A program made the position numbers and the translations under genes. This document shows positions 8,678 to 45,474 of a DNA stretch of 45,474 nt, one piece after another. Position 1 is the stretch's first letter. Every line of letters starts with the position of its first letter. Below the pieces are notes generated by a model. That model did not search any database and was not told where the DNA came from. It saw nothing but the letters and a program-made list of their open reading frames with translations. This DNA is from a virus, in IMG/VR virus record IMGVR_UViG_3300036945_000687, positions 1 through 45,474 of that record. The stretch is one strand, 5' to 3'.

Positions 8678-10718
8678 CGGCCATCCCCATGCCAGCCTTC
8701 ATCGCCTCAAGTTCTGCCTTGTCGCGGTTGAGTTGCAGCGTGCCTGCGTCCAGTTCAACCGATGCAGCCTTTGCCGCCGCGTCGGTTTCATCCTTGACCG
8801 CCTTTGCCACCTTGCCGCGAATGGTTGCCTCTGCGTCCTGCATCGCCATCGCTTGCTCTGGTCCGGGCGGTGGCGGTGGCGGCATAATCTTGTCGATGTC
8901 TTCCACGTCCGCAGCCTCGTAAACGCGCCGCAGCACTTCGCGCACATCACCACCAACAGCTTGCAACGGCTCGACAGTGGACAGCAGGAATTGCGCGCGG
9001 GCCATACGTTGCATCTTTGTCACGCTCGACGGATCGCTAACCGGCGCAATATCCATATCCCGCCCGTCGAAGTCTTTTCGGATGTCCGCAGCGGGATCAT
9101 CCAGCAATTCCATGTATTCAGCTTGCGCGCGTTCATCAGCATGGGTGCCGATGTTGCGATACAGGATTTTGAATTCGCCCTTAAGGCCCAGATACACCCG
9201 CTTGTAGATCGCGGTGAACACCTGCAAGCCTTGTTCGATCAGTGCCAGCGTGGTGCCGACCTGCCCGTTGTTCGAGCCTTCGCCGGTCAGAATGTCCTTG
9301 ATCGACGCAATATCCCGCGCCGCACCAAGGATGAGGTCCAGCAAATTGAACATCACCTGATTAACCTGCGGGAACGTGCGCTCAACAATCCCGTTGCGCA
9401 GCGCATCGCCCGACACCGGCACAGTCTTGTATTCACCCGGACGCCAACGCAGGGACGACGATTGCCCACGCCCTTGCAGTTTCAGGCCCGACGCGACAAA
9501 CCCGCCACCAGCCACAGCAGCGGTGTTCGCATCGATCATCTGATTGACAAGCGTATTGATCACGTTGCCGTATTGGTGGAGCAAATGCGCCAAGCCGATA
9601 TTGTAGAACGTGCCTTCAGGGTTCGGCATAAACCCGTATTTCGTATAAAACTTGCGGCGTTCGATATAGGCCACATCGGTTTCCGCCATCTGCACTTGCT
9701 CTGGCCCGAAGTCCGGCACGATGCGCAGTAGCTGGCGCGACTTGTGATCGATGGTCACGATATACGGCTCGTCAATGCCATCGTCATCCAGATCGAAATA
9801 GGCCTGCGCTTCGATCAGGAGGCGCGGGTCTTTCTCGTCAGGATCGAACGTCACCTCCTGCCGGTATTTGCCGGTGCGTATGTCCCGCTTGATTTGGTGC
9901 GGGTATATGCCGTCGATCTCTTCGGTGATTTGCGGCGCGTCATCCAGTGACTTCGACGCGTTGTTCACCACCAGCTTAAGCGCGGGGACGAACTTGCTTT
10001 GGTGCTTGCGGCCATCGAACCACGACTTACGGAATCCGCAGCCAATCGCAGGCATCTGGAACAGCAGCGTGTCGGTTTCAGCTTCCCATGCGTCCATTTG
10101 ATAGAACAGCATGTAGTTCATGTACTGCCGCACACGTTGAGCGCGCTTGGTCTTATCGCCCGGTTCACGCTTCCAAACGGGTGTAGGATCACCTCCTTCC
10201 GGTAACGGCATCGGGCCTTGTGGCGTTACAACCACAGGCCCTTGCTCGGTAAATGCGACAGGCATTCCTTGGAATTGAAAGCGGGGTTGGCCTTGCTCAT
10301 CAAGCACAGGCATCCCGGTGTCATTGCCCACCACCTTGCACGACACCGCCTCGTCACCCTTGACGACAGCGGGATAGGCGCGGGCATTGAACTGCATCAC
10401 GGCAGTTGCAAGCAGGGGGTATTTGACGTTTGAGGCGTTCGGCCAAGGGAAGTCTTTAGCGTCCGCCTTGGTGTTGCCGATCTCTTTCAGCGCAGCTTCA
10501 GCGACATCGGCCCAATCGGACCGGCTCTGCTTGTCGATCTCGTAAGTATCGCAAACCTGATCGACCACACGGGCGATTTGTTCGGACGTGAGATATTCCG
10601 AAATGTCACCTTCGGCCTCAGCAATCTGCATCAGCAAATCGAGCGACTGCATATCAGCCTTGGATTGAATATCCGCGCGGATTGCGTCTTCCGCTTCTAC
10701 TGGAACATCCAATTCCAT
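8667..10718 (-). CDS. Portal protein
   Basis: 683 residues, as long as P22-type portals. Near residue 90 it has F-P-W-P-N-A-S-N-V-K-Y-P-L-L, a signature of this portal group; it then has a conserved middle with Y-G-F-M-P-N-P-E-G-T-F-Y-N-I-G and a long charged C-terminal helix (barrel region, residues about 610-680). The start has a clear AAGGA site upstream. It follows the large terminase, the standard order. The dodecameric portal is the DNA entry and exit channel and the head-assembly nucleus. Confidence 0.88.
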   Translation of the reverse strand: MELDVPVEAEDAIRADIQSKADMQSLDLLMQIAEAEGDISEYLTSEQIARVVDQVCDTYEIDKQSRSDWADVAEAALKEIGNTKADAKDFPWPNASNVKYPLLATAVMQFNARAYPAVVKGDEAVSCKVVGNDTGMPVLDEQGQPRFQFQGMPVAFTEQGPVVVTPQGPMPLPEGGDPTPVWKREPGDKTKRAQRVRQYMNYMLFYQMDAWEAETDTLLFQMPAIGCGFRKSWFDGRKHQSKFVPALKLVVNNASKSLDDAPQITEEIDGIYPHQIKRDIRTGKYRQEVTFDPDEKDPRLLIEAQAYFDLDDDGIDEPYIVTIDHKSRQLLRIVPDFGPEQVQMAETDVAYIERRKFYTKYGFMPNPEGTFYNIGLAHLLHQYGNVINTLVNQMIDANTAAVAGGGFVASGLKLQGRGQSSSLRWRPGEYKTVPVSGDALRNGIVERTFPQVNQVMFNLLDLILGAARDIASIKDILTGEGSNNGQVGTTLALIEQGLQVFTAIYKRVYLGLKGEFKILYRNIGTHADERAQAEYMELLDDPAADIRKDFDGRDMDIAPVSDPSSVTKMQRMARAQFLLSTVEPLQAVGGDVREVLRRVYEAADVEDIDKIMPPPPPPGPEQAMAMQDAEATIRGKVAKAVKDETDAAAKAASVELDAGTLQLNRDKAELEAMKAGMGMADAS

Positions 10719-32803: not shown

Positions 32804-33000
32804 CAGGTATTGTTTCGCCAAACCAACTAAAGTGGGACACTAACGCTCTTTGGTGGCCCATCAAATGGGGAGATCACCCGCTCTGCGGAGATGACCCTTG
32901 CGATGACTTGCACCCGCTTACATGGGTTCACACCTTGCAGCAGTGCCGCGACGAACGCCGCCCCAAGCCGTATTATACGGCGATAAGGTGGAGGCCGTGA
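32800..33000 (+). CDS. Hypothetical Trp-rich protein
   Basis: 66 residues, [12 protein letters not shown] and [11 protein letters not shown]. Six Trp in all. It starts in the previous stop and ends in the next start. No family recognised. Confidence 0.48.
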
Positions 33001-33407
33001 CCAACCTATCCGAAAAGCTGGAGCAATTGAGCGCGGCTGCGACGGAGGGGGAGTTGCACCACTGTGGCTGGGGCGACGGATCAACCCAAATGGGCATGAC
33101 CAACATCTTTAACGAGCATTCCGAAGTCCTGCTTGTCGAATGCATACCAGAACCGGACGCGGCCTTTATTGTGGCGTTGTGGAACGCCTACCGCACCGGC
33201 CAGCTTGTCGCAGTGCAGGCGGATGAACGCAAATTCAAACTTGGCGACCGCGTGACCAAGACCAAGGGCAGCAACTGGACCGGCCTTGTTGTCGGCTTCT
33301 ATTCCACCAGTCTGACACCGATTGGCTATTGCGTGGAAAGCGAAACTGAGCGGGGCAGTGTGCAATTGTATCCGCAAGCAGCACTAGCCGCGAAGGGGGT
33401 TGCGTGA
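32997..33407 (+). CDS. Protein with type II (DfrB/R67-like) dihydrofolate reductase domain
   Basis: 136 residues from GTG 32997. Residues 79-131 match the R67 SH3-like fold closely: [20 protein letters not shown], then L-T-P-I-G-Y-x-V-E-S-E and G-S-V-Q-L-Y-P. Key catalytic positions of R67 are kept (K88 as Lys32, Q123 as Gln67, Y125 as Tyr69); Ile68 is Leu124. The first 75 residues are an extra domain with no known match. R67 works as a tetramer and is not inhibited by trimethoprim. Reductase activity is inferred only. Confidence 0.78.
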
Positions 33408-33583
33408 TGAGTGATAACGTCATCCAAGCCCATTTCGGCGGCGCGCCTTTTCCGCTACTTGCAGAAGTTGAAGAAGCGGTTTGGGGCACGATCATGCAAT
33501 ACGAGGACCGCGTTCCAGTGATGGGTGTTATAGGTGTCCTTAGGTTGATTGAGCACAGGCTTTTAAGTGATGTTCATTCCTGA
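33407..33583 (+). CDS. Last early gene, hypothetical
   Basis: 58 residues starting in the preceding stop (TGATG). Q-A-H-F-G-G-A-P-F-P-L then helical E-V-E-E-A-V-W-G-T-I-M. It ends the rightward gene run. Unknown. Confidence 0.5.
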   Translation: MSDNVIQAHFGGAPFPLLAEVEEAVWGTIMQYEDRVPVMGVIGVLRLIEHRLLSDVHS

Positions 33584-33839
33584 ACAGCCGATCCTTTGAC
33601 ACGTTGCGGGGATGTGTTAGCCTTGCTCGTTCTTTAGGCAATAGTCCGCTTTCCGTTAAGGCCACCTCAAAGAGAAGTGTAAACGGTTTAACCTACTGGC
33701 GCTCTCTACCTCGTTTAACCGCACTACATTTATAGCCTGCCGGGCTGACCCCCACCGATGACCGTCCAGTCTGCCGTGGTCGCATTTACCTCTCGCATTG
33801 AAAGGTGTGGCGTTTATGTGCGGATATCCCTTAGCCATC
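33584..33839. other. Noncoding stretch, 5' part of the structured region
   Basis: No believable protein gene on either strand; open frames here have shadow-like composition. Small self-complementary elements such as TAAACGGTTTA occur, but I could not build a convincing fold. It may be the 5' part of the RNA described next. Confidence 0.4.
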
Positions 33840-34190
33840 CAGCTAGGCGTCAGGGGGAGCGGAAAGTACCCACCGTATCAGGTATGGGTCAAAAGACTCC
33901 CGAGATATCTGCCCGTCAGAGTGGGCAACTCTCTTTGTGGATTAATCAGTTTGGCCGCGATAGATCGAGATAAACGATCAAAAGTCGGCACTACACTTTT
34001 CATCCAAGGCAGCTTTTTTGCCTAGCCCGCCGGAGAAAGCGCCAACGCGCATAACCGGGTTGAAAAGTGACCGATCCTGCGGTAGTACGAGGTTCGGGGC
34101 GATGGCATGGGCTAGATGCTGTCGTCCCGGATACCTTAGCATTTGTTCCCGTTATGGGCTAATGCAAAGCCTGAATCACTAACAGGCTTA
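33840..34190 (+). ncRNA. Candidate structured noncoding RNA (ornate-phage-RNA type)
   Basis: Several elements agree on the plus strand. A 16-bp hairpin (34093-34108 with 34116-34131) has four G-U pairs that would be mismatches on the other strand. Its apical loop GGGCTAG is a perfect complement of CTAGCCC at 34022-34028, so a pseudoknot is possible. CAGGTAT (33879-33885) pairs with ATATCTG (33905-33911). An H-type pseudoknot is visible at 33910-33932: TGCCC with GGGCA, interleaved with AGAGT and ACTCT. Two of these elements share bases 33910-33911. A tRNA follows, as for GOLLD/ROOL RNAs. Ends are not known. Confidence 0.5.
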
Positions 34191-34204
34191 TTGATTGATT
34201 TTTA
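34167..34204 (+). terminator. Hairpin with T-rich tail before tRNA-Thr
   Basis: AAGCCTG (34167-34173) pairs with CAGGCTT (34183-34189) around a 9-base loop; a T-rich stretch including five T follows by 34203. It could end the structured RNA or be a spacer before the tRNA. Confidence 0.45.
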
Positions 34205-34212
34205 CGATTAAT

Positions 34213-34288
34213 GCCGTTGTAGCTCAGATGGTAGAGCGCCTGCCTTGTAAGCAGGATGTCCGGGGTTCGATTCCTCGTTGCGGCTCCA
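34213..34288 (+). tRNA. tRNA-Thr (anticodon TGT)
   Basis: 76 bases with D-arm, anticodon stem CCTGC/GCAGG (34239-34243, 34251-34255), loop CTTGTAA with anticodon TGT at 34246-34248, T-arm with TTCGATT, and encoded CCA. The acceptor stem has one T-T opposition and two G-U pairs. It decodes ACA. Phage tRNAs often help late gene translation; here it sits between the converging operons. Confidence 0.9.
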
Positions 34289-34312
34289 ATTGTTCCCGCT
34301 CTACATGGGCCA

Positions 34313-34328
34313 CACTGTGCGCACAGTG
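34313..34328. promoter_or_regulatory. Perfect 16-base palindrome
   Basis: CACTGTGCGCACAGTG, centred at 34320/34321, with no spacer. As DNA it could bind a dimeric protein; as RNA it folds poorly because there is no loop. It differs from the CI operator. Target unknown. Confidence 0.4.
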
Positions 34329-34427
34329 CTATGTATCGGGCTTGAGGAAGGGCTGAGAACCGTGGCGCATGTGTCCACGTAATAGGCCGAACGGGATGGC
34401 AGAACCCGTGTATAGCAATCTGCTATC

Positions 34428-34465
34428 AGGGCGGCATGACAGGGGGTTCCCAGTTGTGCCGCCCT
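34428..34465 (-). terminator. 9-bp hairpin after the last late gene
   Basis: AGGGCGGCA (34428-34436) pairs perfectly with TGCCGCCCT (34457-34465); the loop is 20 bases. It lies 4 bases beyond the stop of the last leftward late gene. No good U-run follows on the minus strand, so termination is probable from position, not proven. Confidence 0.5.
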
Positions 34466-34469
34466 TGTC

Positions 34470-37262
34470 TTATGGCATCAAGCCCGTCGCGTAGCGCGAG
34501 CATATTTCAGTGCGATTGCCACCTACAACGACACCTTGACGACTGATCGAAGCGGGCAAGCTCGCAAGGCCCGTCAATCCGCCTGTGGTTGGTGTGAGCG
34601 CAAAGCCATTGACCCACAGTGTAATGTCGCTGCCCTTGATCCCGTATTTGATACGATCACCACGCTTTAGAGCGGTTGCCAGCGTAAATGTGGCAAGCGT
34701 GGTGTTTGTGCCGGTCACGCGCTTTAGGATCGTGATTGTCAGTCCGTTCGTGGCCCAATGAAGGCCGATGAAGTTCTGTGCATCAGTCAACCGTAGCGCA
34801 GCCATATTGTTAGCGTTACCGCCCGCGCCACCATAGACAAGCTCTGTCCAATGATCTGCCGATCCCATATCCGGTGATCGCACAACGGCGCGAGTAGACG
34901 TGCTGCTAGACCAAGCCGAGAAGAGCCGGTTGCGGAATACTCGGATATAGCGGGCCTGCCCATTCACCAACGTCCAATTGGCGTTTGCTGAAAGCGATTC
35001 CTCTGGACGCCCAAAGTTATCACTGAACAACGTCCCGGCAGTGTCAGGCAGACCGAACCCTGTCATGCCCATCTGGCTGACAACAGCGTCGCGCAGGACA
35101 TTGACCAAGATCGAAGAACCGACGTTTTCGCCATCACCGCTAAAGCCGTCAGGATGTATTTGGTCCACAAGGGTGCTGTAGTTTGAACGCGGGATAAATA
35201 CCGCGCTATCACCCGGCGCTGGCGTTGCTGCCAAGCCTGCTGAAAGTGCCTGCAAATCGGTAAAGTTGTTGGTCAGAGAACTAACAGCGCCACGGGCTGC
35301 GCCAGACGTGATTGCGACGTAGCTGTTGCCGGTAGGCGTATCGTCCATGCGGACAGCAACGGTTGCCTCTGGCACGTTGATCGTACTTGCGTTTGATCCT
35401 GCACCCAGCACAAACGGGATAGGAGCGCGCAATTCAGGTTGCGTACCGCCAACCGCAGGCTTGCCACTATCACGGCTGCTTTCCGTACGGTCACCAACTT
35501 CAATAAAGCCACCCGTCCATGTATCTGACCGGATCAATCCGTTGAGCGGACCACGGATTGCTTCGCGCACGGCAATTGGCGCTTGGTGCGCCGTAGTCAT
35601 CGGTACGTCTTTGTCAGATAAGGTGATAGTGCCAGTGACCGCACCGCTAATCGGTGTGGTGTTCAGGAACGCCAATGTCAGGGTATTCGTGCCTGTATCG
35701 ATTGCCTCGATCAACTTCATGCCGTTGACCGTTGCGGCCCCTGTCCCGGTTGCGCCAAGAACCTGAATAACCGTGTTTACAGTGTAGATCGAAGCGTTCG
35801 GCACAACCACTGCCAACGTATCTGTTGATGCGGTCACGCTTACCGCAGTGACGTTTGCCACCGAGCCGCGCGCGCTCTGCGTGGTTGGGAAATAGTCGAT
35901 CCCATAGGGCGAAAGTTTGGCCTCAATAAAGTGATGGTCTGTTTGGGTTTGTGCTGCGCTAGTGCCTGCTGTTGTGTCGTTGATGCTCCATTCGGAAATG
36001 AAGTTCTTGACCCCCATCTGCGCTAGTACGGCGGCTTGCTTGTCGAAACGCGCGCCCACTGCCCAAGTGCGGATAGTTGACCCTCCAATGGCAAAGTTGG
36101 CAATCGGCGCACGGCGCTCGCCAACCACTTCAAGCGGAAACCATTTAACTTCAGTTTCAACGAGGCTGTCGCCACCCAGCCCGATAGGCTCACGGATCGT
36201 GCTGCTATCCGCCGTAGTCATCAAGCCAGCAAAGCCGTGCATGACAGGGTGATATGCTGCGCCGCTGCCCGGCGTTGCTGTTGCAGTCACCACCACTGCG
36301 CAACCCGCAGGGATCGGTACGGCAAGAACCATGCGGTCAGTTTCCACCGTCGCGCCGCCTGTAATCGAAAGCGTCGTGCTCGCGCTGATTGTCAGGTCAA
36401 CCGACTGGTTGAGGTAGGATAGGTTTACGGTCCGCGAATACGTAGGCAGATCAACAAATCCCGCCGAACCTGAATTGGTGTGAACCCAACCCGTCAGGAT
36501 CGCAGAAACCGTTGTAATGTCCGCGCCGCTCTCATTCCAATACGTCGAGGATAGCGGAACAGCTACTCCGGTCCCGGTCGGCAGTGGAATGTCATAGCCT
36601 ACGCTTGTCCAAGTCCCGCCCGATGACCGCCCGCTGGTGTTGCTGGCAAGCTGCGTGACTGTGCCGCCACCCGCCACAACATCGCTAGTCCCGGTCGAAG
36701 TACGCGGGCTGTTTGCGCTGTCTGCCAGCGTCTCAACAAGCGTCCATGCCTGCCCTGTAGCCACTGCACCAACCGTTACCGTCCGCGCGCCGCTGTTGAC
36801 GCTCCAACCCGCTGGCAATGTGCCAGTGATCGTGGAACCCGCCGTTGCTCCCGTGATCGCCACAGTTGCGCCGGTTGTTATTGATCCGGGCAGTGTCAAT
36901 GCAGATAGGCTGGCCGCTTCAAACACGTTCGTGACACTGATCGTAAACGTCCGCACAACAGGCGCATCCACGCCATTGCTTGCGCTGATCGTCACCGAAT
37001 GGCTTTGCGCCGTTTCGTAATCGAGAGCCGCTGCCGTATTGAGGTTCGATCCCGACACGGCAAACTTGGCGTCAGGGTCTGCTGTTTTCGTGAAGGTGTA
37101 TGTGCCAGAGCCGCCCACCACCGACAGGACGCCCACCGTTGAACCGGACAGCGCGCTTTCGAGAATGGATGATGCGGTGATTTGCAGCGATGGGCTAGTT
37201 GCACCACCGCCACGCGGAGCCAAGCCAAGCGTCAACGCGCTCGATAGCGACAGACCAGCCAT
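34470..37262 (-). CDS. Large SGNH-hydrolase tail protein
   Basis: 930 residues from ATG 37262, which overlaps the o-spanin stop (TAATG) and has GGAG upstream. First comes an Ig/cadherin-like part (residues to about 190: F-A-V-S-G-S-N-L, V-T-I-S-A-S-N-G-V-D). Then an SGNH esterase: G-L-G-G-D-S-L (Ser366), W-S-I-N-D about 50 residues later, and D-Q-I-H-P (D700, H703). The Ser to Asp/His distance is far greater than usual because a beta domain is inserted. The C-terminal 190 residues look like a lectin/LamG-type jelly roll. Probably deacetylates or de-esterifies the host surface sugar. Confidence 0.7.
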   Translation of the reverse strand: MAGLSLSSALTLGLAPRGGGATSPSLQITASSILESALSGSTVGVLSVVGGSGTYTFTKTADPDAKFAVSGSNLNTAAALDYETAQSHSVTISASNGVDAPVVRTFTISVTNVFEAASLSALTLPGSITTGATVAITGATAGSTITGTLPAGWSVNSGARTVTVGAVATGQAWTLVETLADSANSPRTSTGTSDVVAGGGTVTQLASNTSGRSSGGTWTSVGYDIPLPTGTGVAVPLSSTYWNESGADITTVSAILTGWVHTNSGSAGFVDLPTYSRTVNLSYLNQSVDLTISASTTLSITGGATVETDRMVLAVPIPAGCAVVVTATATPGSGAAYHPVMHGFAGLMTTADSSTIREPIGLGGDSLVETEVKWFPLEVVGERRAPIANFAIGGSTIRTWAVGARFDKQAAVLAQMGVKNFISEWSINDTTAGTSAAQTQTDHHFIEAKLSPYGIDYFPTTQSARGSVANVTAVSVTASTDTLAVVVPNASIYTVNTVIQVLGATGTGAATVNGMKLIEAIDTGTNTLTLAFLNTTPISGAVTGTITLSDKDVPMTTAHQAPIAVREAIRGPLNGLIRSDTWTGGFIEVGDRTESSRDSGKPAVGGTQPELRAPIPFVLGAGSNASTINVPEATVAVRMDDTPTGNSYVAITSGAARGAVSSLTNNFTDLQALSAGLAATPAPGDSAVFIPRSNYSTLVDQIHPDGFSGDGENVGSSILVNVLRDAVVSQMGMTGFGLPDTAGTLFSDNFGRPEESLSANANWTLVNGQARYIRVFRNRLFSAWSSSTSTRAVVRSPDMGSADHWTELVYGGAGGNANNMAALRLTDAQNFIGLHWATNGLTITILKRVTGTNTTLATFTLATALKRGDRIKYGIKGSDITLWVNGFALTPTTGGLTGLASLPASISRQGVVVGGNRTEICSRYATGLMP

Positions 37263-37570
37263 TACTTGCGCTCCATTTCGTTTGCCCACGCCCGAACACC
37301 CGAAAGCTTTGAACGGCAGTCAGAACCAGCAGATCGTTCCGCCAAGATGTATTCGAACACCGCCCGGTCGCGTTCGGCTTGTGCCAGTTGGATCGATGTC
37401 AGGTTGCCCGTTGACCACGGCACGCTGGCAAGGTCTGGCGCTTGTGCAGCATCAGCGCATTGCAGTAACGCAGGCGGTGGAAGTGCGACCACTGGCCTAC
37501 TTTCGCCGCAACTTGCGCAGGCCGTCGCCAAGGGGATCAGTGCCAGCGTTCGCAGCTTTCCGAGCTTCAT
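37262..37570 (-). CDS. o-spanin-like lipoprotein (Rz1-like)
   Basis: 102 residues from ATG 37570. It begins K-L-G-K-L-R-T-L-A-L-I-P-L-A-T-A-C, a lipoprotein signal with the Cys at residue 18, then a Pro-rich region (V-A-L-P-P-P-A-L), as in Rz1. It overlaps the end of the i-spanin gene in another frame by 74 bases. With the inner-membrane partner it would fuse the membranes at lysis. Confidence 0.72.
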   Translation of the reverse strand: MKLGKLRTLALIPLATACASCGESRPVVALPPPALLQCADAAQAPDLASVPWSTGNLTSIQLAQAERDRAVFEYILAERSAGSDCRSKLSGVRAWANEMERK

Positions 37571-44715: not shown

Positions 44716-45467
44716 CAGCCGAAGCCCTTCAGAATACCGCCGCCCAATGTGCCGAGCGCGTTGCCGAACACGCTTTGCTGTGACAGTGCCGCATTGGCCC
44801 GCGCATCGCTTGCCGCTGTGTTGCTTGCCGCGATGGTGCCCGCGTAATTGGTGGAGACGCCAGCCAATGCACCCGCCGCCGTAAGGCCGACACCCTGTTG
44901 ATTAGCGACACCGCTCGCCCACTGGTTGCGATAGCCCGATTGCAGATTTTGACGGTAAGTCTCTAGCGCCTTCATGGCCGCGCCGGATTGCACCGTGCCC
45001 TTGCCAGCGTAACCGGAGTTTACCGCGTTGCCGCCTTCCTGTTGCTGGAAAGCGTAATCCGAATTCCCGATGTAATTGGCGAATGCAGATCGGCTATCGG
45101 CTTTAGGCTGCGTGACGGCAGGCGTGGGGGTTGGCGTGAAATTCGGAGGCGTATAGAACCCGCCAAAGCTGGACCCGCTGCCAAAGTTAAACCCGCCGTA
45201 AGCCGGAGCCGTAGCGGCAGGCTGCACCGTCTGCGTTGGTTGTTCAATCCCGTAGAAGTCGTTTAGCAGCGCGCCCGCATTGGTGCCGGTCTGCACGAAT
45301 GGCGAGAGGACGCCTTTGTTTTCGCCGTAAATCTCTTTGGTGAGCGCGTTGTTATTGGCCGCAGTTGCCGAAGCGTCCGCAGATGCCTGCTTGGCAGCAG
45401 AGTTCGACTTGGAAGCCGAGATAGCAGCGCCACCGGCTATCAATCCTGCACCAGCAACAATCACCAT
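44715..45467 (-). CDS. Ejection (DNA transfer) protein, complete copy (P22 gp7 position)
   Basis: 250 residues. Gly/Ala hydrophobic start (V-A-G-A-G-L-I-A-G-G-A-A-I), then a Gly/Pro-rich variable linker (residues about 84-120), and a conserved C-terminal part with N-S-G-Y-A-G-K-G-T-V-Q-S-G and Y-R-N-Q-W-A-S-G-V-A-N-Q-Q-G-V-G-L, typical of gp7-type proteins. If the ends join, the GNAT gene precedes it in the operon. The linker differs from the partial copy at 1-390. Confidence 0.75.
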   Translation of the reverse strand: MVIVAGAGLIAGGAAISASKSNSAAKQASADASATAANNNALTKEIYGENKGVLSPFVQTGTNAGALLNDFYGIEQPTQTVQPAATAPAYGGFNFGSGSSFGGFYTPPNFTPTPTPAVTQPKADSRSAFANYIGNSDYAFQQQEGGNAVNSGYAGKGTVQSGAAMKALETYRQNLQSGYRNQWASGVANQQGVGLTAAGALAGVSTNYAGTIAASNTAASDARANAALSQQSVFGNALGTLGGGILKGFG

Positions 45468-45474
45468 GCCTAAT
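45217..45474. repeat. Terminal repeat, right copy (imperfect)
   Basis: Partner of 140-397, ending on the last base of the window; about 11 mismatches in 258. Upstream in this copy the sequence is unrelated to the left end. Confidence 0.85.

Follow-up and report, generated by a model that had tools for sequence, protein, structure and literature searches.

What does a temperate phage carry in its one long stretch without a credible protein gene, next to its only tRNA gene? The window analysed here is the whole of IMG/VR virus record IMGVR_UViG_3300036945_000687 (45,474 bases), a temperate phage that encodes an integrase, a CI-like repressor, a portal protein and a terminase. The record is classed as linear, yet it has a direct terminal repeat (1–397 and 45078–45474). 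Positions 169–342 and 45246–45419, near both ends, match one same stretch of a relative, so that the ends appear to be a terminal repeat and the record looks like a complete genome. Plus-strand early genes extend to 33583. The last sizeable one (32922–33407) has a C-terminal domain (residues 104–157) that resembles rhizobial-phage proteins annotated as R67-type dihydrofolate reductase. A late gene converges from the minus strand (34470–37289, stop codon at 34470), and a relative search for its protein found none. No stretch of 400 bases or more in this phage other than 33496–34469 lacks an ORF of at least 80 amino acids, and tRNA-Thr(UGU), with an encoded CCA, lies within that stretch on the plus strand (34213–34288). 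A first-pass annotation of the sequence, which rightly described this gap as lacking a credible protein gene, proposed that it holds a large structured noncoding RNA at 33840–34204 that recalls GOLLD and ROOL or forms a new class.

Are there other copies of such an RNA? BLAST searches with the RNA against phage and plasmid nucleotide collections returned tRNA or chance matches only. Scanning viral contigs for the exact pattern of the pseudoknot described below identified an IMG/VR contig, L164, which aligns to 33630–33943 at 66% identity (E 9e-23) and onward to 34056, and has an nhmmer E of 1.1e-41 in a profile search of 2.1 Mb. A profile of the window and L164 recovered a second and far more divergent IMG/VR contig, L010, which as a query matches window positions 33632–34083 (nhmmer E 2.7e-7 in 2.1 Mb). 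L010 is one of the phage's terminase relatives, a set in which BLAST had found no RNA. A covariance model (R1) trained on the window and L164 only, with L010 left out, ranks L010 third (E 3.3e-5) in 1.36 Mb, where no further match has an E of 10 or less, and recognises in it the core made of helix E, hairpins F and G, the pseudoknot and the UUGUGG that follows. The part common to the members is 33630–34083; as for the tRNA-bearing 3′ part, L164 lacks it and in L010 it does not align. Since the tRNA is absent from both relatives, it appears to be an optional 3′ element of the RNA.

The family comparison thus covers three sequences, the window, L164 and L010. No significant match was obtained in 395 genomes from the family of a Tateyamaria genome (G058), and the best match among 385 genomes of its class (E 0.004, one genome) was at chance level; the RNA is therefore rare among the sequences searched. 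The best match in a second set of loci (L165, E 0.015) was rejected as chance, as it has the 18-mer by which it was selected and lacks the rest. Pattern scans with other sequence blocks gave chance matches apart from the known members, and the contig of a portal relative (G048) stops before the RNA region.

The relatives bear directly on whether the region is a decayed protein gene, or an ordinary spacer with a tRNA leader. Short ORFs do overlap it, and a U-rich hairpin (34167–34203) lies immediately before the tRNA. However, the core is kept in both homologs, which have no tRNA, and a run of 36 bases around the pseudoknot is shared without a single difference by genomes that diverge elsewhere. 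Indels between the window and its relatives disrupt every reading frame and the overlapping ORFs have no Pfam match, on which grounds a protein-coding reading was rejected. The covariation given below also disfavours a decayed gene or spacer, which we regard as scarcely credible. That the phage has no other long ORF-poor gap, and that the indels break all frames, indicates that the region is non-coding.

Which structure do the three sequences share? All elements are described on the plus strand. At the 5′ end, helix P1 (GCCUUG/UAAGGC, 33620–33662) reads GCCAUG/UAUGGC in L164, by eye, with one double change and a 5-nt indel in the loop. Hairpin A (AGAGA/UCUCU, 33671–33707) encloses the conserved GUGUAAACGGWUUAACCWACUGGC and has the same pairs in L164. 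Helix B′ (CGCAC/GUGCG, 33720–33822) closes a domain; it is CGCGC/GCGCG in L164, a double change seen by eye and by scan, and by eye L010 has CUGCCA/UGGCAG at the same place, immediately 5′ of helix E. Hairpin N (CCAC..GUGG, 33752–33779) has inner pairs GAC/GUC that are GGC/GCC in L164 (a double change, by eye), and a 17-nt block at 33772–33788 is unchanged there.

The core begins with helix E (GAUAU/AUAUC, 33823–33909), which surrounds hairpins F and G and is UAUCC/GGAUA in L010. Hairpin F (33828–33856) occupies the same MAFFT columns in L164, paired through double changes: UCCCUU/AGGGGG in the window against UCCUAA/UUAGGG in L164, with three adjacent double changes in columns that were not fitted to the structure, and inner pairs GCC/GGC against GUC/GAC. 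Taken alone, at least three double changes in this hairpin have a probability of 0.067 with substitutions redistributed. Hairpin G (33855–33901) has the form GGGAG-CGGAAAGU-ACCCA-CCGUAUCAGGUA-UGGGU-CAAAAGA-CUCCC. L010 keeps its loops (CGGAA(A)GU, CCGUAUCAGGUA and CAAA(A)GA) and alters both stems, GGGAG/CUCCC to GGGUG/CACCC and ACCCA/UGGGU to UCGC/GCGA; in L164 the hairpin is shortened to GGGGG/CCCCC. A 7-bp stem at 33879–33911 in the first-pass annotation fared less well. Its strands, CAGGUAU (33879–33885) and AUAUCUG (33905–33911), can pair, but the 5′ strand is absent from L164, the relatives lend the stem no support, and it competes with the covarying stems 33823–33827/33905–33909 and 33868–33872/33885–33889.

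Next comes a tight H-type pseudoknot (33910–33932), UGCCC-GUC-AGAGU-GGGCA-ACUCU, which the annotation had read correctly. Its stems, UGCCC/GGGCA and AGAGU/ACUCU, contain 5+5 Watson-Crick pairs and it is identical in L164. Equally tight pseudoknots number four in the phage, both strands summed, and occur in 0.35% of segment shuffles. L010 restores the pseudoknot with a different sequence (GGGC-CUCAUU-CGAG-AUU-GCCC-AG-CUCG; present in 3% of shuffles), and UUGUGG stands directly 3′ of it in all three members.

Further 3′, a 9-bp helix (CACUUUUCA/UGAAAAGUG, 33994–34069) is predicted from the single sequence to close a multiloop, and L164 has an analogous, unaligned helix. Within it lie a hairpin with a loop of six U (GCAGCUUUUUUGC), conserved in L164, and the linker CUAGCCC at 34022–34028 (hairpin and linker, 34007–34028). 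The last large element is the 3′ hairpin at 34093–34131, in which a base check of 34093–34108 against 34116–34131 confirmed all 16 pairs, four of them G-U, as first described; the hairpin scan lists it as 17 bp by one extra outer pair. It is the longest perfect hairpin (loop of 3–8) on either strand of the phage. Just one more perfect short-loop hairpin reaches 14 bp or more, a 15-bp plus-strand hairpin inside the portal gene (8841–8878). The complementarity noticed earlier between the loop GGGCUAG (34109–34115) and the linker is exact, with 7/7 Watson-Crick pairs, and is kept in L164 through a double change (GGGCUAG/CUAGCCC to GGCCAG/CUGGCC). This pairing is predicted to tie the 3′ hairpin to the centre of the RNA.

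How strong is the covariation taken together? The compensating changes that the first-pass annotation had named as a check are present: across the three sequences, 10 of the 26 pairs of the core (33816–33960) are changed on both sides. Paired cells amount to 90.8%, a level reached by 0/500 shuffles, and when the partners are slid by 1–3 columns core pairing falls to 37–52%; because the structure was used to fit the core alignment, these values are biased towards it. Less dependent on the alignment are hairpin F, hairpin G, the L010 pseudoknot and the double change in the loop-linker pairing. The main weakness of the analysis is that a blind count of covariation in contiguous stems, window against L164, is at chance level. 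Because that scan demanded uninterrupted, G-U-poor stems in a fixed alignment, neither hairpin F nor the shifted loop-linker pair was picked up. Hairpin F did emerge from a second scan, run under relaxed G-U limits once the blind result had been seen. With two homologs and these compensatory changes, the proposal of a large structured noncoding RNA beside the phage tRNA is borne out, as is its suggestion of a new class, and a new structured RNA family is very probable.

Where does the RNA begin and end? Helix P1 sets the 5′ end at 33620, and a hairpin followed by a U-run sets the 3′ end at 34190. Together with the homology to L164 and L010 this gives a best-estimate extent, to the first terminator, of about 33620–34190 (about 570 nt). 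The RNA is thus larger than the interval first proposed, 33840–34204, which covers it in part. The probable terminator (34167–34203) was found by a base check and consists of AAGCCUG/CAGGCUU followed by AUUGAUUGAUUUUU; it is absent from the scanner listing because its loop is 9. Alternatively, transcription may continue past the tRNA as far as about 34465, giving about 850 nt with the tRNA inside. The post-tRNA tail (34289–34469) is a candidate for the 3′ end of such a longer transcript; it has a GC-rich hairpin from 34429, reaches up to the stop codon of the convergent late gene, and has folding z-scores of −2.9 on the plus strand and −2.7 on the minus strand. A promoter scan gave no match.

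Is the conserved entity an RNA, or could the DNA itself be conserved, as an origin, packaging or recombination site with secondary structure? Compared with dinucleotide shuffles, 33840–34204 has a folding z-score of −3.45 on the plus strand and −2.05 on the minus strand, so the plus strand is more stable than its shuffles, as a structured RNA had been expected to be. The 5′ part (33584–33839) is not unusually stable by the same comparison (z +1.1), but its homology shows it to be part of the RNA. In L164 the folding energy on the RNA strand is not below shuffles, and the minus strand is equally or more stable in L164 as well as in L010, so the z-scores of the relatives do not favour the plus strand. 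This weak strand preference would suit a DNA site, which phages carry once per genome. Against such a site stand the four G-U pairs of the longest hairpin, the pseudoknot and loop-linker contact, which require single strands, and the placement on one strand beside a tRNA gene. In addition, in all three members a U-rich tail follows the last plus-sense hairpin on the same strand: in the window at 34167–34203 and after the hairpin from 34429, in L164 as CCGCCCCUUCCUU and in L010 as GGAGCGGGCCGUUUCUAUUU. We consider a DNA site very improbable, and favour an RNA made from the plus strand on the basis of the U-rich tails, the G-U pairing in the 16-bp hairpin and, for the window, the better plus-strand z-score.

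Does the RNA belong to a known class? At the gathering thresholds of Rfam 15 the window contains the tRNA only, and at E ≤ 10 the window, L164 and L010 give no GOLLD, ROOL, RNase P, tmRNA, group I/II intron or HEARO, nor a meaningful score for any other family apart from tRNA; for GOLLD and ROOL this search was also run with lax filters. The RNA nonetheless resembles GOLLD, whose expression rises at lysis, in several features: it is large, borne by a phage and located near or around a tRNA (here tRNA-Thr at 34213–34288), and it has pseudoknots and a loop-linker pairing. ROOL is similar in size (about 570 nt precede the tRNA here), is found near tRNA in prophages or phages and has a complex fold with multiple pseudoknots; those of the window are 33910–33932 and the loop-linker contact 34022–34028/34109–34115. 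GOLLD and ROOL form RNA-only cages through loop contacts, GOLLD as a 14-mer and ROOL as an octamer-type nanocage, and tRNAs are sometimes carried in the GOLLD linker (PMC12286853). These features would fit a divergent GOLLD or ROOL RNA that the Rfam models fail to detect, but three divergent members all lack a match at E ≤ 10. The layout of GOLLD is also reversed, since GOLLD is universally conserved in its 3′ region and less in its 5′ region, whereas the present members have the 5′ and central part in common and differ in the 3′ part, with a single tRNA in one of the three members. Such a divergent relative is improbable, and the identity with GOLLD or ROOL entertained at first is not sustained. 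The RNA may work like GOLLD or ROOL; membership in either is not supported, and it is best read as an undescribed family of the GOLLD and ROOL kind carried by temperate phages.

Another pertinent question is whether the RNA acts on its neighbours. Its position immediately downstream of the early operon, with a tail that reaches the stop codon of the gene at 34470–37289, and in L164 too its location on the strand opposite to its neighbours, might be expected of a structured 3′ untranslated end or terminator region of the early operon, or of an antisense regulator acting on the convergent late gene. But the neighbours are unrelated in the other members: the RNA is between convergent operons in the window, between an HTH gene and gapR in L164, and about 2 kb upstream of the terminase, on the opposite strand, in L010. 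Nor would a terminator require the conservation of over 400 bases, complete with a pseudoknot and a contact over long range. A cis-acting element is accordingly judged unlikely. The three unrelated genomic places, with no common neighbour gene, and the lack of any protein gene following the RNA on its own strand in the window argue for a trans-acting RNA and not for a leader, a terminator or antisense control.

How might a trans-acting RNA of this kind work? It would be transcribed from the plus strand, probably in the lytic phase by analogy, would fold to a compact globule and would end at the U-rich hairpins, and the tRNA would be cut out of the transcript by host tRNA-processing enzymes. 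By analogy with GOLLD and ROOL it could act as an RNA particle or a scaffold, perhaps assembled as a homo-oligomer by way of the loop-linker contact, a mode of action that we offer tentatively. The explanation as a whole, a free-standing, trans-acting RNA of about 570 nt that belongs to a new family and acts as an oligomer or scaffold, is in our judgement somewhat favoured. More speculative is a third class of cage-forming phage RNA, with the loop-linker contact made between molecules and the tRNA as cargo or linker.

Several terminase relatives with full genomes have one large unannotated gap each. In the Rhizobium phages RHph_Y1_10, RHph_N2, RHEph18 and RHph_I3_18 the gap is about 430 nt and looks structured (16120–16620 of L180, RHph_Y1_10; 4635–5120 of L186, RHph_I3_18, where an annotated hypothetical protein overlies it on the other strand). 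Between Y1_10 and I3_18, two stems have two double changes each, a result reached by 0/150 controls. Like the RNA described here, the gap of these two phages is non-coding and has a plus-strand terminator and a possible pseudoknot (GCCC-UAU-CUGGU-GGGC-AAC-AUCAG), but R1 scores 2.6 bits at the expected place and homology is unsupported. With default filters R1 gave no match in RHph_I3_18, and with filters off its best scores were 6.2 (L180), 4.6 (L183) and 3.3 bits (L179), none of them significant.

Sulfitobacter phage phiGT1 has a 642-nt gap between annotated genes (L183, 34363–35005) with a plus-strand terminator-like hairpin, and the phage collection contains no relatives of it beyond phiGT1. 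Sulfitobacter phages pCB2047-A (L179, 11754–12265), pCB2047-C and NYA-2014a have an unannotated gap of 511 nt near the terminase. The gaps of phiGT1 and pCB2047-A are unrecognised by R1. A 42-nt motif in the 511-nt gap is 95% identical (E 4e-9) to Rhodococcus phage Dorin (L188, 3001–3042), and in Dorin and Francesca, both Rhodococcus phages, it is located between two tRNA-Lys genes. The motif is closed by a stem of differing letters (CGCGG/CCGCG vs CUGGC/GCCAG), and at E ≤ 10 Rfam gives tRNA only at its loci; the region is possibly another undescribed phage RNA. The Rhizobium and Sulfitobacter gaps are leads, not members of the new family. Should a third cage-forming class exist, they would be further distant or convergent classes.

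Among the few large structured phage RNAs without an assigned role, two, GOLLD and ROOL, were recently shown to form RNA-only cages. Curated libraries overlook large RNAs that are visible as unannotated gaps in phage genomes. An unrelated family of like size and setting would make it possible to test whether phages in general employ RNA particles or scaffolds as a strategy.
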